Shown piece by piece: positions 17,275 through 22,672 of a DNA stretch of 64,000 nt. A model generated the notes under the pieces. It did not search any database and was not told the DNA's origin. It saw only the letters and a program-made list of their open reading frames with translations. The DNA is taken from NCBI RefSeq assembly GCF_000980815.1, contig NZ_CP011311.1, forward strand, positions 1,193,815 through 1,257,814, in the 5' to 3' direction. Position 1 is the stretch's first letter. Each line of letters begins with the position of its first letter. Made by a program: the position numbers and the translations under genes. Origin of the DNA: Corynebacterium camporealensis (GTDB taxonomy: Bacteria; Actinomycetota; Actinomycetes; Mycobacteriales; Mycobacteriaceae).

Positions 17275-18660
17275 ATGCTCGCATCAGTGCTTGCGCCAGA
17301 TTCAGTTTTAGCCATCATTTTGCAGCTCGTGGTCATCCTGAGTGCACTGTTGTTGGGCACTCGCTACGGTGGCCTCGGCCTGGGCTTGATTTCAGGCATC
17401 GGCCTGATGCTCATGGTCTTCGTCTTCGGCCTAGCTCCAGGTGAGCCGCCCATCGACGTCATGCTGACTATCATCGCAGTCATTGGCTGTGCGGCTACGC
17501 TGCAACAGGCCAGGGGACTGGAAGTGATGATGCAGTTTGCCGAGCGCATCTTGCGCGCCCACCCTGAACGCATCACCATCCTCGCACCGATTACGACCTG
17601 GTTCCTTACCGTGTTGTGCGGTACCGGACATGTGGTTTACACGATGTTTCCGATCATCGAAGACATCGCGTTGAAGAAGGGCATCCGCCCGGAGCGTCCC
17701 ATGGCAGTGTCTTCAACCTCAGCGCAGATGGGTATCACGGCCTCACCAGTTTCTGTGGCAACTGTTTCTTTGGCCTCCATTCTCGCTGAAAACGCCGGTG
17801 TCATCGACCAGGCTTACTCCATCCCACAAATCCTCATGGTCGCCATCCCAGCATCCTTGAGTGGTGTCCTGCTTGCAGCCTTGTGGTCACTGCGTCGCGG
17901 TAAGGACCTGGACAAAGACCCGGTGTTCCAAAAGCGCATGGAAGATCCTGAGTTTGCTCGATCCCTGACGGAGTCCAGCCACTCGCTGCTCGATGAGGTC
18001 TTCCCGGCTACCGCTAAGCGCTCCGTGGTGATCTTCCTCGTTGCTATTGCCACCGTGGTTGTTCTGGGTGCGTTCGATGCCCTGCGCCCGAGTTTTCCCA
18101 ATGAAGACGGCGATTTGACGCCGTTGTCGATGAACCTCGTTATTCAGATGGTCATGCTGGTTGCCGGTGCACTTATCCTGCTGACCTGCAATGTCGACAA
18201 TAAGAAGATTGCTGGCACCCCTGTGTTCAAGGCCGGCATGACCGCGGTGTTCTCCGTCTTCGGTGTTGCCTGGATGGCAGATACCTTCTTCCAGACTCAC
18301 GTCGATGCACTCGAAGCCGAACTTGGCGATGTCGTTGCCAGCGCACCGTGGGCTTATGCAATCGTGCTGCTGATTGTGTCCAAGCTGGTCAATTCCCAGG
18401 CGGCCGCGCTGGTGGCTATCGCCCCAATTGGTCTGCAACTGGGCATCGACCCAGCCGTCATCGTCGGCTTCTACGGCGCAGCCTATGGCTACTTCATTCT
18501 GCCGACCTACCCATCCGACCTAGCTTGTATCGGCTTCGACCGCACCGGCACCACCCGTATTGGCAAGTTCGTGATCAACCACTCCTTCCTCATCCCGGGC
18601 AGTATCTCGGTGCTGACCTCCTGTATTGTCGGCTCGATTTTGGCGCAGATTCTGCTCTAA
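17275..18660 (+). CDS. dcuB: DcuB-type C4-dicarboxylate carrier
   Basis: A 461-residue polytopic membrane protein with about 10-12 helices. It matches the DcuA/DcuB family from memory of E. coli DcuB in several blocks: the GTRYGGLGLGLISGIGL opening, PPIDVMLTIIAVI near 60, the highly conserved LCGTGHVVYTMFPII near 120, RPERPMAVSSTSAQMGITASPVSVA near 142-166, and RRGKDLDKDPVFQK. The family exchanges fumarate, aspartate or malate for succinate, classically during anaerobic fumarate respiration. The ATG is preceded by AAAAGGGGAAG. A palindrome lies upstream. The end overlaps a convergent methyltransferase gene by four bases. No fumarate reductase gene is nearby. Confidence 0.88.
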   Translation: MLASVLAPDSVLAIILQLVVILSALLLGTRYGGLGLGLISGIGLMLMVFVFGLAPGEPPIDVMLTIIAVIGCAATLQQARGLEVMMQFAERILRAHPERITILAPITTWFLTVLCGTGHVVYTMFPIIEDIALKKGIRPERPMAVSSTSAQMGITASPVSVATVSLASILAENAGVIDQAYSIPQILMVAIPASLSGVLLAALWSLRRGKDLDKDPVFQKRMEDPEFARSLTESSHSLLDEVFPATAKRSVVIFLVAIATVVVLGAFDALRPSFPNEDGDLTPLSMNLVIQMVMLVAGALILLTCNVDNKKIAGTPVFKAGMTAVFSVFGVAWMADTFFQTHVDALEAELGDVVASAPWAYAIVLLIVSKLVNSQAAALVAIAPIGLQLGIDPAVIVGFYGAAYGYFILPTYPSDLACIGFDRTGTTRIGKFVINHSFLIPGSISVLTSCIVGSILAQILL

Positions 18661-19457
18661 GCCCGACGCACTAAGAATGCGTCGCTGCGGTAGGTAATCT
18701 CTACGATATCGTCAGCTGCAAAGCCGAGGTGTTCGTGGAGATACCAGTTCAAGTTAGCGGTCATCCGTTCGCGGATGGCCGCTTTGCTGCGTAACCAGTA
18801 AGAACGGGTGTGCATCAACTGGTGGACTTCCGGGATGGTTAAGCGTTGCACCCAGTGGGTGCGTACTTCTTCGTCGATTTGCCAGGGTGTTGCGAGCTTT
18901 GGGGTGAACCCGGCGCGCAGGATGTCGCCGGAGTGCATGATGCGGGTAAGACGCAGAATCCAGGGGTCGGCTTCGACGTCGATGGTGTTCCAGGCTAGGA
19001 CGACGGTGCCGCCGGGACGGAGGATGCGGTCGAACTCTGCGCTGGCGGCTTCGACGTCGACCCAGTGCCACGTTTGGGCGCAGGTGATGGTGTCGATGGA
19101 GGCATCGGAAAGCGCAGTGTTTTCTGCCGTGGCACGCCAGGTGGGGATGCGCAGGTTCTGGTGGAGTTGGCGGGCCATGTCGGCGGAAGGATCGCAGGCC
19201 AGCACGTGTGGGTGGGGCAGTGCTTGAGTGAGTTTGCCTGTGCCGGCGCCAATGTCGACGACTGTGCCGGTGTTACCTGCAAGAGCGACGACCTCGTCCG
19301 GGTAACCGGGGCGGACGTCATGATAGGTGGATGCGCCGGTGCTGAAAGCCCGGGCGGACGTATCGCGCGCGTCGGTGCTATGAAAGCGCGGCGCGGTCGC
19401 TGAGGAGGGCTTGCGGTAGCTGGGGTAGTGCGACGGGTCAGGGTGGTGAGTCGACAT
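18657..19457 (-). CDS. Class I SAM-dependent methyltransferase
   Basis: A 266-residue enzyme with the Rossmann methyltransferase core: motif I VVDIGAGTGKLT (about 66-77), the acidic VLACDPSADM strand end, and TWHWVDVEAASAEFDRILRPGGTVVLAWNT typical of the Methyltransf_11/25 group. The first 35 residues are a His/Ser/Pro-rich lead of uncertain reality. The substrate is unknown. Its start lies only 37 bases from the start of the divergent ABC exporter gene, so both promoters share one short region and could be co-regulated. Confidence 0.82.
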   Translation of the reverse strand: MSTHHPDPSHYPSYRKPSSATAPRFHSTDARDTSARAFSTGASTYHDVRPGYPDEVVALAGNTGTVVDIGAGTGKLTQALPHPHVLACDPSADMARQLHQNLRIPTWRATAENTALSDASIDTITCAQTWHWVDVEAASAEFDRILRPGGTVVLAWNTIDVEADPWILRLTRIMHSGDILRAGFTPKLATPWQIDEEVRTHWVQRLTIPEVHQLMHTRSYWLRSKAAIRERMTANLNWYLHEHLGFAADDIVEITYRSDAFLVRRA

Positions 19458-19494: not shown

Positions 19495-20925
19495 ATGTCG
19501 ACACTTCCAGCACCTTCCGATCCGCGCTGGTTGCTCAAGACGGTCTTTTCCCAATACCGATTGTCCGCGCCAGCATCCATTCTGATGGCGTTGTCTTTCC
19601 TGTCGAATGGTCTCACGCCTGTGATTGTGGGCCGGGCAATTGATGATGCGATTGCGCAAGGGTCTGTGCGCTCGTTGGGATTCTGGATCGGCGTCTTGGC
19701 AGCCGTGTTCCTCTTTAACATCGTGGTTGCTTGGTTTGCCCGTGGCATGTTTAACCGGGCGATGCTGGAAATTGGCCACGACCTGCGTATGGAAGTCACT
19801 GACCGCATTCAGCACCCACGCGGTATTGGTGGCCCAAGGCGCACTGCTGGTGAGCTGCTAGCCATTGCGTCGTCGGATACCAAGCGTGTGGCCGATGCGG
19901 TCATCATGACCGTCTTCCCGGTCGCGGAGATTGCCTCGATTATCTACGTCGCCGTCATGGTGGCTTTAGTCAACGTCCCGTTGGGCTTGGTGGTGCTGTT
20001 GGGCGGTCCCACCATGGTGTGGATTTCCCTGCGCGCGGCGAAGCCCTTGCGGCGTCGTTCGAGTACTCGTCAGGCAGCCCTTGCACAAGCATCGGCGACT
20101 GCCACTGACGTTGTACAGGGACTGCGTATTCTGAAGGGCCTAGGCTCTATCAACACCGTGCGCAAGCGCTACCAGGTGGTGTCTGATGAAGCTTACGAGC
20201 GCACCGTGGATGCCAATGGTGCGCGTGCACGGCTCGATGCGATTACGGAGACCGTCGGTGCCATCTACGTCATCGGTGTGGCATTGGCTGCGGGCTTTAT
20301 GGCTATCAACGGTGCGATCAGTATCGGTGAGCTCATCACTGTCATTGGTCTGACTCAGTTCATCATCACCCCGATGACGATGTTGGGTAAGAATATTGCG
20401 TCTCGCTGGGCTGCGGCACAAGCCTCCGGACGCCGTATCACCACGCTGCTTAACGCTGATGGCGTGGACGATACTGCTCCTGCCGAACCAGCAGTTGGTC
20501 CCGGTATCCATGTGGTAGCCGACCACGCGCCAGAGGGCATCGAGTTTCTCCCGCGTGAGCGCTACCTGGTCACCCCGCACCAGGCGGACTTGTTTGCCGG
20601 CACGATTCTAGACAATGTCCACTCGGATCGAGAGAAAGCCGAACAAGCCCTGTGGGTGGCTGCAGCCGACGACATCCCCGGCGGTTGGGACCGTGAGGTA
20701 GGCGAGAACGGCGGCAACCTATCTGGCGGTCAACGTCAGCGCGTTGCTTTGGCCCGTGCGATTGCTGCCGATGCCGACATCCTCATCCTCCAAGACCCCA
20801 CCACGGCGGTGGACTCGGTGACCGAACAGCGCATCGCTAGCCGCGTGGCTGACTTCCGCCGCGATAAGCCCACGATCATCTACACCACAGCCCCTGCGTG
20901 GTCGGCACAGGAGGTGAGCTCCTAA
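19495..20925 (+). CDS. ABC exporter half-transporter lacking Walker A
   Basis: A 476-residue half-transporter with a six-helix type 1 exporter membrane domain (residues about 25-310) fused to a shortened nucleotide-binding domain of about 155 residues. The strand-and-P-loop part is absent: the sequence passes from the linker (RITTLLNADGVDD, near 320) straight to the Q-loop-like VTPHQADLFAGTILDNV. The signature LSGGQRQRVALARAI is perfect (409-423). Walker B is altered to ILILQDPTTAVD, losing the usual Asp-Glu pair, and the H-loop histidine is replaced (IIYTTAP). Usual members have 570-600 residues. It cannot bind ATP in its own P-loop, so it must work with the next gene product. The reading frame is uninterrupted. 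Confidence 0.85.
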   Translation: MSTLPAPSDPRWLLKTVFSQYRLSAPASILMALSFLSNGLTPVIVGRAIDDAIAQGSVRSLGFWIGVLAAVFLFNIVVAWFARGMFNRAMLEIGHDLRMEVTDRIQHPRGIGGPRRTAGELLAIASSDTKRVADAVIMTVFPVAEIASIIYVAVMVALVNVPLGLVVLLGGPTMVWISLRAAKPLRRRSSTRQAALAQASATATDVVQGLRILKGLGSINTVRKRYQVVSDEAYERTVDANGARARLDAITETVGAIYVIGVALAAGFMAINGAISIGELITVIGLTQFIITPMTMLGKNIASRWAAAQASGRRITTLLNADGVDDTAPAEPAVGPGIHVVADHAPEGIEFLPRERYLVTPHQADLFAGTILDNVHSDREKAEQALWVAAADDIPGGWDREVGENGGNLSGGQRQRVALARAIAADADILILQDPTTAVDSVTEQRIASRVADFRRDKPTIIYTTAPAWSAQEVSS

Positions 20926-20926
20926 C

Positions 20927-22672
20927 ATGCGTTTCCCAACTGCTACCTGGCCGCAGGTTCGCAGCGCACTCGGTGCCACTCTCAAACATGTGCCCGGCGC
21001 GCGCGGCTACTTCATCTTGTCGATTATCTTGCTGGCCGGTGGTGCTGCCGCCCACATCCTGGTGCCAGTGCTACTCGGCAAGATCGTCGACATCATCACC
21101 GGTGAAAGCACCTGGACACTACTGCAGATTGCCTTGGCACTCGTTGGTGCAGCCGCGGCGTCAGCTGGGTTGTCTGCCGCCGGTTTCTATCTGCTGTCTC
21201 GGCTTAGCGAACGCGCTATCGCTAACCTGCGTGAAGACATGGTGGGCACTGCCTTGGGCTTGCCGGTCCACCGCGTCGAAGAAGCCGGCAGTGGTGACTT
21301 GGTTTCCCGCTCGACGGACGACGTGTCAGAGCTATCCGCTGCGGTGACTGAGACTTTGCCAGTGCTGGCTAGCTCGCTGTTTTCCATTGCAGCCACCGCC
21401 ATTGCGCTAGTCACCATGGACTGGCAATTCTTGCTTGTCGTGCTGTGTGCTGCACCCATCTATGCATTGGCGGCACGTTCCTATCTCAAGGTTGCCCCGC
21501 AGCGCTACGCCAACGAACGTGCCTCCATGGCAGATCGTGCCCTGCGTGTGTTGGAAGCTATCCGCGGTCGTGCAACCGTGCGCGCTTTCGGCATGGAACA
21601 GCAGATGCACGACCGCATTCATGAATCCAGCCGCAACGTCGTCGAGCACGGATATGCCGCACGCCGGACCATGATGGTGTTGCAAGTCTGGATTTCCACC
21701 GTGGAACTGGTCATGCTGTGTACTGGTTTGCTGGTCGGCTTTTGGGCAGTCTCTCAAGGCAACCTCACCGTCGGTGCGGTTACTGGTGCCATCTTGATGC
21801 TCATCCGCCTACGCGGACCACTCATTGGCCTGATGCGCGTGCTCGATACCGTGCAGTCCGGCTACGCCTCACTGGCACGCATTGTCGGTGTGGTCGCTGA
21901 TCCACCGCAGCCCGTGCCAGATTCAGGTGCACCAGCACCGCGTGGCGATGTCGACATGGAGCATGTCTCCTTTGCTTACGATGACGGCGGCTGGGCTGTC
22001 GAGGACGTCAGCGCTGAGCTTAAACCTGGCCAGACCTTGGCCCTCGTTGGCGCCTCCGGCGCCGGTAAGACGACCGTTGCTGCCTTGTTGGCAGGTCTCC
22101 GCGTTCCGGATGCCGGGTCTGTGCGCATCGATGGGGTAGAAGTCTCCCAGCTTTCTGATGCCGAACGCGTCACCCGCTTAGCGATGGTCTCCCAGGACGT
22201 CTATGTCTTCTCCGGCACCCTGCGTGAAGACCTCCAATTGGCCCGCCCGGATGCCAGCGATGAAGAGATGATCGCTGCACTTGAACGGGTGCAGGCAGAC
22301 TGGTTCTTCAAACTTGCCGACGGCCTGGATACCGAAGTCGGTGCCCAAGGGGTGCAACTGGAACCCGTGGAGGCACAACAGCTTGCACTGGCGCGCATCC
22401 TGCTGTTGGACCCGAAGGTCGTCGTCATGGATGAGGCCACCGCAGAGGCAGGTTCCGTGGGTGCCGGCGCACTCGAGGATGCCGCCCGGGAAGTCACCGA
22501 AGGCCGCGCCAGCCTCGTGGTCGCACACCGCCTGGATCAGGCTGCGGCGGCAGATGAGATCCTCGTCATGGATTCTGGCCGAGTGGTAGAACGAGGCTCG
22601 CACCAGCAGCTGCTAGATTATGAGGGTCAATACGCGCGACTCTGGGCCGCTTGGCAGAAAGGACGCTCTTAA
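20927..22672 (+). CDS. ABC exporter half-transporter with degenerate signature motif
   Basis: A 581-residue half-transporter with six membrane helices (about 25-310) and a full-length nucleotide-binding domain. Walker A GASGAGKTT (about 375-383), Q-loop SQDVYVFSGTL, Walker B VVVMDEATAEAG (near 500) and the H-loop histidine in VVAHRLDQ are intact. The signature LSGGQ is replaced by the LEPVEAQ segment just before QLALARILLLDPK. It is therefore the mirror image of its partner encoded one base upstream. Together they can build a single composite ATP site from this protein's Walker motifs and the partner's signature. The transported substrate is unknown. It overlaps or abuts a lipoprotein esterase gene. 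Confidence 0.87.
   Translation: MRFPTATWPQVRSALGATLKHVPGARGYFILSIILLAGGAAAHILVPVLLGKIVDIITGESTWTLLQIALALVGAAAASAGLSAAGFYLLSRLSERAIANLREDMVGTALGLPVHRVEEAGSGDLVSRSTDDVSELSAAVTETLPVLASSLFSIAATAIALVTMDWQFLLVVLCAAPIYALAARSYLKVAPQRYANERASMADRALRVLEAIRGRATVRAFGMEQQMHDRIHESSRNVVEHGYAARRTMMVLQVWISTVELVMLCTGLLVGFWAVSQGNLTVGAVTGAILMLIRLRGPLIGLMRVLDTVQSGYASLARIVGVVADPPQPVPDSGAPAPRGDVDMEHVSFAYDDGGWAVEDVSAELKPGQTLALVGASGAGKTTVAALLAGLRVPDAGSVRIDGVEVSQLSDAERVTRLAMVSQDVYVFSGTLREDLQLARPDASDEEMIAALERVQADWFFKLADGLDTEVGAQGVQLEPVEAQQLALARILLLDPKVVVMDEATAEAGSVGAGALEDAAREVTEGRASLVVAHRLDQAAAADEILVMDSGRVVERGSHQQLLDYEGQYARLWAAWQKGRS

Follow-up and report, generated by a model that had tools for sequence, protein, structure and literature searches.

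Can an ATP-binding cassette (ABC) exporter work with a single ATP site when most of the other has been lost from the protein? This question is raised by two adjacent genes of Corynebacterium camporealensis, located at positions 19,495 to 22,672 of the window, i.e., the whole stretch analyzed, 64,000 nucleotides of contig NZ_CP011311.1. They encode two half-transporters, chain A and chain B, with nucleotide-binding domains (NBDs) that are incomplete in complementary ways: chain A has no P-loop (Walker A) and an intact LSGGQ signature, and chain B has a P-loop and no signature. We consider it probable that the two chains combine into a type IV (ABCB-like) exporter, a heterodimer in which a single composite ATP site is formed. 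Published work is cited by PMC number.

Two half-transporters with complementary motifs

Both chains score above the cut-offs of the Pfam profiles PF00664, the six-helix ABC_membrane domain, and PF00005 (ABC_tran), the NBD that follows it, though chain A matches only positions 59-136 of the 137 in the latter. The start codon of chain B lies 1 nt past the stop codon of chain A. The features of the pair are as follows (window coordinates, strand, description).

19495..20925, +, chain A, exporter half-transporter without P-loop, 476 aa (ATG at 19495, stop codon ending at 20925)
19591..20376, +, chain A transmembrane domain (TMD), residues 33-294 (Pfam profile PF00664; helices in the model)
20446..20562, +, chain A remnant at the place of the A-loop, beta-subdomain and P-loop, residues 318-356
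20575..20580, +, chain A Pro-His replacing the Q-loop Gln, residues 361-362 (from the alignment column)
20719..20733, +, chain A LSGGQ signature, intact, residues 409-413 (SGGQ in 153/153 A chains)
20779..20796, +, chain A altered Walker B, ILILQD, residues 429-434
20797..20817, +, chain A D-loop, PTTAVDS, intact, residues 435-441 (Asp in 153/153)
20887..20889, +, chain A H-loop position, Thr (IIYTTAP) and not His, residue 465 (from the alignment)
20927..22672, +, chain B, exporter half-transporter without signature, 581 aa (ATG at 20927)
21011..21820, +, chain B TMD, residues 29-298 (Pfam profile PF00664)
21977..21979, +, chain B A-loop Tyr, residue 351 (Tyr in 153/155 B chains with a letter in the column; one gap)
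22049..22075, +, chain B Walker A, GASGAGKTT, residues 375-383 (156/156 B chains)
22193..22195, +, chain B Q-loop Gln, residue 423 (155/155 readable B chains)
22358..22372, +, chain B lost signature, LEPVE, residues 478-482 (LEPVEAQ spans 478-484; SGGQ in 0/155 readable)
22418..22435, +, chain B Walker B, VVVMDE, residues 498-503 (Asp and Glu in 155/155 readable)
22442..22456, +, chain B lost D-loop, AEAGS, residues 506-510 (Gly for Asp in 151/155 readable)
22526..22528, +, chain B H-loop His (VVAHRL), residue 534 (155/155 readable B chains)

The pattern GxxxxGK[ST] was not found in chain A, and its remnant leaves 28 residues between the A-loop and Q-loop columns, compared to 60-73 in the full-length A chains of loci L134-L160 (L numbers designate the loci compared). 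A sequence-only reading of the window had described a first subunit without Walker A and H-loop His and with a damaged Walker B (LQD) but a perfect LSGGQ, and a second that keeps Walker A, Walker B, and the H-loop but has lost LSGGQ (LEPVEAQ). Our motif reading agrees in each respect and extends the partition: chain A also lacks the A-loop and the Q-loop Gln, reading PH there, and the D-loop Asp is lost in chain B (AEAGS) and kept in chain A (TTAVDS). The usual wording of the D-loop is SALD, where chain B reads AEAG. Gene names such as 'ABC transporter ATP-binding protein', which sources give to A chains, are likely misleading for this half.

In the geometry of ABC dimers, the signature and D-loop of chain A and the Walker side of chain B face the same composite site. 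Six elements were scored per chain, i.e., Walker A, Q-loop, Walker B, H-loop, signature, and D-loop. One composite site has all six present and the opposite site has all six lost or altered, in line with the earlier proposal that exactly one complete site is possible and that the other has neither half. Random placement of six losses among twelve elements would put all of them on one site with P = 0.002, a value that treats the elements as independent, though they are not. The same-site geometry is stated for the Walker motifs, the A-, Q-, and H-loops, and the signature in PMC7756269.

The partition is conserved across Actinomycetota

We counted motifs in 153 A and 156 B chains from Corynebacterium, other Actinomycetota, and the plasmid-borne TetAB, a sample that was drawn by similarity to chain A and describes the family, not all exporters. 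The sequence-only reading had named as a counterexample a first gene that retains Walker A in a relative; this was sought among the 153 A chains and none was found; H-loop His was likewise absent from all 153. SGGQ (152 LSGGQ, one YSGGQ) and the D-loop Asp were present in every A chain. The Q-loop column held His in 145 chains, Arg in five, Tyr in two, a gap in one, and Gln in none, and the A-loop column was a gap in 124. At the catalytic position we counted 100 Asp, 41 Glu, 11 Asn, and one His; the catalytic Glu is the least consistent of the losses in A chains.

Among the B chains, Walker A was present in 156/156, and the Q-loop Gln, Walker B Asp and Glu, and H-loop His were present in all 155 that are readable throughout (the B chain of L076 is cut short). 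SGGQ occurred in none of the 155, and the D-loop column held Gly in 151, Asp in three, and Ala in one. The former signature of B reads as 76 different strings, one of them an all-gap row, versus two in A. The same reciprocal losses that were earlier proposed for checking across Corynebacterium are seen family-wide; far from being an isolated case, the partition characterizes the family across Actinomycetota.

Within the genus, 105 of 151 genomes match chain A at E <= 1e-20. An A orthologue (at least 45% identity, E <= 1e-118) occurs in 66 genomes among the matches listed, the window genome included, and comparison of the two lists of matches places chain B in all 66. None of the A orthologues with a readable NBD from these genomes was found to contain Walker A, so the loss in chain A is no sequencing error. 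The distance from the A stop to the aligned B start is at most 20 nt in 28 of the 32 plus-strand orthologue pairs measured. At least 59 further matching places followed the first rounds of sampling, and 40 of them were added.

Left out of the A count were L065 (a contig-end fragment), L049 (a run of N), L053 and L171 (interrupted frames), and L223 (a broken pair); the B count omits L065, L223, and one of the two frame pieces in each of L076 and L093. SGGQ is present and Walker A absent in the readable part of L049, and SGGQ is still visible in the excluded A frames of L053 and L171. We considered L049 as a natural A-B fusion and dropped this, as its frame crosses a stretch of N read as X. At L051, a frame lies between A and B that, judged by appearance, resembles a transposase.

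A phylum-level search returned 19 further A chains, all with SGGQ and all without Walker A, Q-loop Gln, and H-loop His, some of which overlap earlier loci. The twentieth locus, L247 (30% identity), encodes an ordinary pair, each chain of which has a P-loop, and lies near or beyond the family edge. The 142 of 296 genomes matched in this search were rejected as a measure of family prevalence because ordinary exporters, e.g., L247, are among the matches.

Other exporters served as controls. The remaining five PF00664 exporters of the window genome keep the Walker A Lys, the Q-loop Gln, the Walker B Asp and Glu, the H-loop His, the D-loop Asp, and SGGQ; in one of them, the P-loop reads STSGSGKTT and was missed by the regular expression. 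A wider control, which is a control sample and not a distribution, covered 80 loci with 112 exporter-like open reading frames (ORFs) among the matches listed, from many phyla, and was scanned with generic motif patterns. Six ORFs in this set of listed matches had SGGQ but no P-loop by regular expression. Five of these, from Saccharothrix, Kibdelosporangium, Actinomyces, Streptomyces, and Glycomyces, are each followed by a signature-less partner, and these Actinomycetota members are the only P-loop-less SGGQ chains in the set. The sixth, L291 from outside Actinomycetota, was rejected as a loss and has a variant P-loop instead. Seven further chains of the set, from other lineages, have a P-loop but no signature by regular expression; no P-loop-less SGGQ chain was flagged in their loci, which fits ordinary degenerate-site pairs. 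In nine other actinobacterial loci viewed in this sample, the LSGGQ chain retains its P-loop.

Selection on the retained and the lost motifs

The ratio of non-synonymous to synonymous substitution (omega) was estimated by the Nei-Gojobori method on 16 close pairs. It was 0.013-0.199 in the signature half of the NBD of A (15 of 16 pairs with usable synonymous divergence), 0.048-0.213 in the NBD of B (15 pairs), and 0.031-0.672 in the remnant of A (15 usable pairs). The remnant exceeded the signature half in 11 of the 14 comparable pairs and did not in three. Column entropies among orthologues mirror this: LSGGQ has 0 bits in A and up to 2.14 in the same columns of B, the H-loop column has 2.86 in A and 0 in B, and entropy is 0 at the P-loop Lys, Q-loop Gln, Walker B Asp and Glu, and H-loop His of B and high at most mirror positions. 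The half that builds the live site is under strong purifying selection, and most of the dead half is relaxed.

There are newly fixed residues at the dead interface. The Pro-His that replaces the Q-loop in A has entropies of 0 and 0.47 bits, and the Pro in place of the first signature Gly of B (residue 480; 22364-22366) has 0.2 bits. The conservation of these residues suggests a structural role for the dead interface. The sequence-only reading had held that the division of motifs was selected and not random decay. This stands insofar as the partition is conserved and the kept motifs are under selection; that the loss itself was selected is unsupported for most positions, where remnant omega and column entropy indicate relaxation.

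Predicted structures of the chains

The model of chain A, built from an 83-row alignment (predicted local distance difference test score, pLDDT, 86.8; predicted template modeling score, pTM, 0.63), shows a predicted exporter fold, with TMD helices followed by a small NBD with strands at residues 337-341, 357-359, 429-433, and 459-463 and a signature helix at 411-424. Nothing in it corresponds to the chain B strands at 342-349 and 358-365, which we take to be the antiparallel beta-subdomain. The chain B model (46 rows; pLDDT 78.5, pTM 0.52) has weak stretches. The best folds for the chain A model in the PDB were chains of TM287/288, TmrAB, and MsbA; BmrCD and MsRv1273c/72c also ranked within the first 20. 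By sequence, the best 60 of 405 and of 535 PDB matches were general ABC exporters and relatives, with no apparent member of the family among them.

Loss of the P-loop segment

A chains form one clade and B chains another, each with support 99, in a FastTree phylogeny that carried long-branch warnings. A second tree was built under a mixture model from 90 A and 7 B rows with the P-loop columns removed. Of the class-level A chains L133-L160, 27 of 28 are full length with an erased P-loop, e.g., L135, with VVTADPAVATS where B reads LVGASGAGKTT; the exception, L133, falls in the window's lineage though its source belongs to another family. Most A chains of other genera thus retain their full length and have lost the P-loop by erasure, whereas in the window's lineage the segment is physically gone. 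Three groups have the shortened segment: the window's orthologues (support 99), a Tet-like group (99), and a group nested among full-length chains (L068/L069/L104/L208; 100). Parsimony counted two changes at length thresholds of 45-60 and seven at 40, with the base of the tree unresolved and the lengths of rows L188-L227 possibly underestimated through trimmed inserts. Since regrowth of a P-loop is implausible, these counts imply that the segment was probably deleted independently two or three times.

Comparison with known transporters

TetAB (renamed TexAB) of the Corynebacterium striatum plasmid pTP10 has the same partition as the window pair. TetA resembles chain A in lacking Walker A, in reading PH at the Q-loop, and in having an intact LSGGQ and D-loop, but differs in keeping DDP at Walker B. 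TetB, like chain B, has Walker A, Q-loop, Walker B, and H-loop and lacks the signature and D-loop Asp; it differs in a gap at the A-loop column. The TetAB models NF000506/NF000103 gave 145.6 bits for chain A against the TetAB-A cut-off of 1025, and 254.4 against 999; neither cut-off was reached, and given the chain A score the window pair is not TetAB. A 1999 report is said to have described resistance conferred by TetAB in C. glutamicum. PMC4384142 describes TetAB as a heterodimeric tetracycline exporter and cites that report, and PMC8304765 lists TetAB of pTP10 as an exporter of tetracyclines and beta-lactams. By analogy, since TetAB has the same anatomy and is reported to confer resistance, it appears that such pairs can work.

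TM287/288, TmrAB, BmrCD, and MsRv1273c/72c share the fold and likewise combine a consensus composite site with one that is degenerate. The degenerate site of TM287/288, TmrAB, and BmrCD keeps its P-loop and binds ATP. MsRv1273c/72c binds ATP at its degenerate site, and a role as glue has been proposed for ATP there (PMC12038006). Unlike this pair, whose degenerate site keeps the P-loop, the window pair has a weak site with the P-loop side absent. It shows the defining trait of degenerate-site heterodimers, i.e., one consensus site and another altered in catalytic and signature residues, and does not show the usual but non-defining trait of a degenerate site that has a P-loop and binds ATP (Walker A in 0/153 A chains). 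On this comparison, the pair appears to be an extreme variant of degenerate-site exporters, going beyond MsRv1273c/72c. In yeast Pdr5, all motifs of one site are similarly changed, including the signature of the other NBD (LNVEQ), but there the Walker A Lys is changed to Cys by a point change, in contrast to the P-loop deletion here (PMC7756269). The same review of degenerate sites names Pdr5 among the largest deviations, with point changes.

Two plasmid loci hold A-B pairs with the same motif partition as the window pair within what read, from annotation, as siderophore clusters. These are L181 (5259-11522; Rhodococcus), among isochorismate and AMP-binding/carrier genes, and L182 (1-9527; Streptomyces), among hydroxamate-siderophore-type genes. 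The L182 cluster looks similar to the Streptomyces coelichelin cluster, whose ABC pair, CchGI, is a presumed siderophore exporter. Relatives of the window pair are, then, a tetracycline exporter (TetAB) and pairs in siderophore gene clusters.

Proposed mechanism and alternatives

In the heterodimer that we favor, chain B would give the A-loop, Walker A, Q-loop, Walker B with the catalytic Glu, and H-loop to the one site, and chain A would give LSGGQ and the D-loop; the opposite site could not form because A has no P-loop and B no signature. Substrate would load from the cytoplasm. One ATP on B, clamped by the signature of A, would close the NBDs and turn the TMDs outward, and hydrolysis at the one site would reopen it. 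The dead side may either stay in protein-protein contact as a hinge, through the Pro-His of A and the Pro of B, or open with the live site.

Several observations weigh against this model. Individual chains deviate from the partition: in L198 and L200 a His occurs two places past the H-loop column of A, Tyr stands at the A-loop column in 4/153 A chains, Glu is kept at the catalytic position in 41/153, and the D-loop Asp is kept in 3/155 B chains. Frames are interrupted or broken at five loci (A in L053 and L171; B in two pieces in L076 and L093; both chains in L223), so that some strains may be able to do without the system, unless the breaks are assembly faults. TetAB is about 31% identical to chain A, so that function carries over by anatomy and not by close kinship. 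Finally, the models are of single chains, and the putative pairing is supported by genetic linkage.

The alternative that survives best, though unlikely, retains the single-site pair but makes it an importer of exporter fold or an ATP-gated regulator. Importers of this fold exist, i.e., IrtAB and YbtPQ; chains of both are among the fold matches of chain A, and relatives of the pair lie in siderophore clusters. Neither, however, is among the best 60 of 405 and of 535 PDB sequence matches, the anatomically identical TetAB is reported as a drug exporter, and CchGI, the ABC pair of the cluster that L182 resembles, is presumed to export.

It is quite improbable that the dead side binds nucleotide by an unusual route, using the remnant of A and residues of B, such that two nucleotides are bound and one is hydrolyzed. 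MsRv1273c/72c provides a precedent in the proposed glue ATP at its degenerate site (PMC12038006). In this family, by contrast, no A chain has Walker A, the segment is deleted in at least two lineages, the Q-loop Gln and H-loop His are gone as well, and the remnant evolves fast.

We regard as very improbable the reading that A and B do not pair and that one of them works with another ABC half-transporter. A possible alternative partner is seen at the Streptomyces-like loci L244 and L246, where a third ABC exporter frame (GSTGAGKS, ISAGQ) stands directly beside the A-B pair. However, B accompanies A in 66/66 genomes among the matches listed, at a spacing of 1 nt in the window; neither A alone nor B alone can build a complete site; and the five other PF00664 exporters of the window genome are all complete. 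A decaying pseudogene pair, to which the five broken loci might point, has a negligible probability and is refuted at the family level by frames that are open in most orthologous loci, strong purifying selection, and an SGGQ and D-loop Asp that are invariant in the family sample.

Implications of a proposed single-site exporter family

It is not settled why an impaired ATP site is retained in many ABC exporters, and one proposal is that ATP serves as glue there (PMC12038006). The family bears on this as a natural experiment, with a weak site that has no P-loop to hold ATP and yet a member, TetAB, that is reported to work. We give a little better than an even chance to the broader proposition that this is an Actinomycetota-wide exporter family in which one ATP is bound and hydrolyzed per cycle, the second site was erased and then, in two lineages or more, cut out, and the dead interface is an ATP-free hinge with the new Pro-His of A and Pro of B as its marks. 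If true, ATP as glue at the weak site would not be a general need of degenerate-site exporters, and the family would offer a clean system for one-ATP stoichiometry. In TetAB(60), deletion of Walker A from either chain abolished resistance (PMC5138185), so pumps of the present family would have to have rewired their coupling. A literature search that covered few subscription journals, judged by the papers listed, turned up no account of an exporter chain lacking its P-loop, and the 1999 TetAB report may mention the missing motif; in passages of PMC3350403 and PMC2830990, nothing on tetAB was found.

Genomic context

Neighborhoods were compared in 65 orthologous loci of about 8 kb each. A Methyltransf_11 protein is encoded at window positions 18657-19457, divergent from the pair, and has a relative in 47 of these loci. 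A downstream esterase was found in 38/65, as was der, which may be out of reach at this span. Adjoining der, a DcuA/DcuB-type C4-dicarboxylate transporter is encoded at window positions 17275-18660 and occurs in 12 of the 65 loci.

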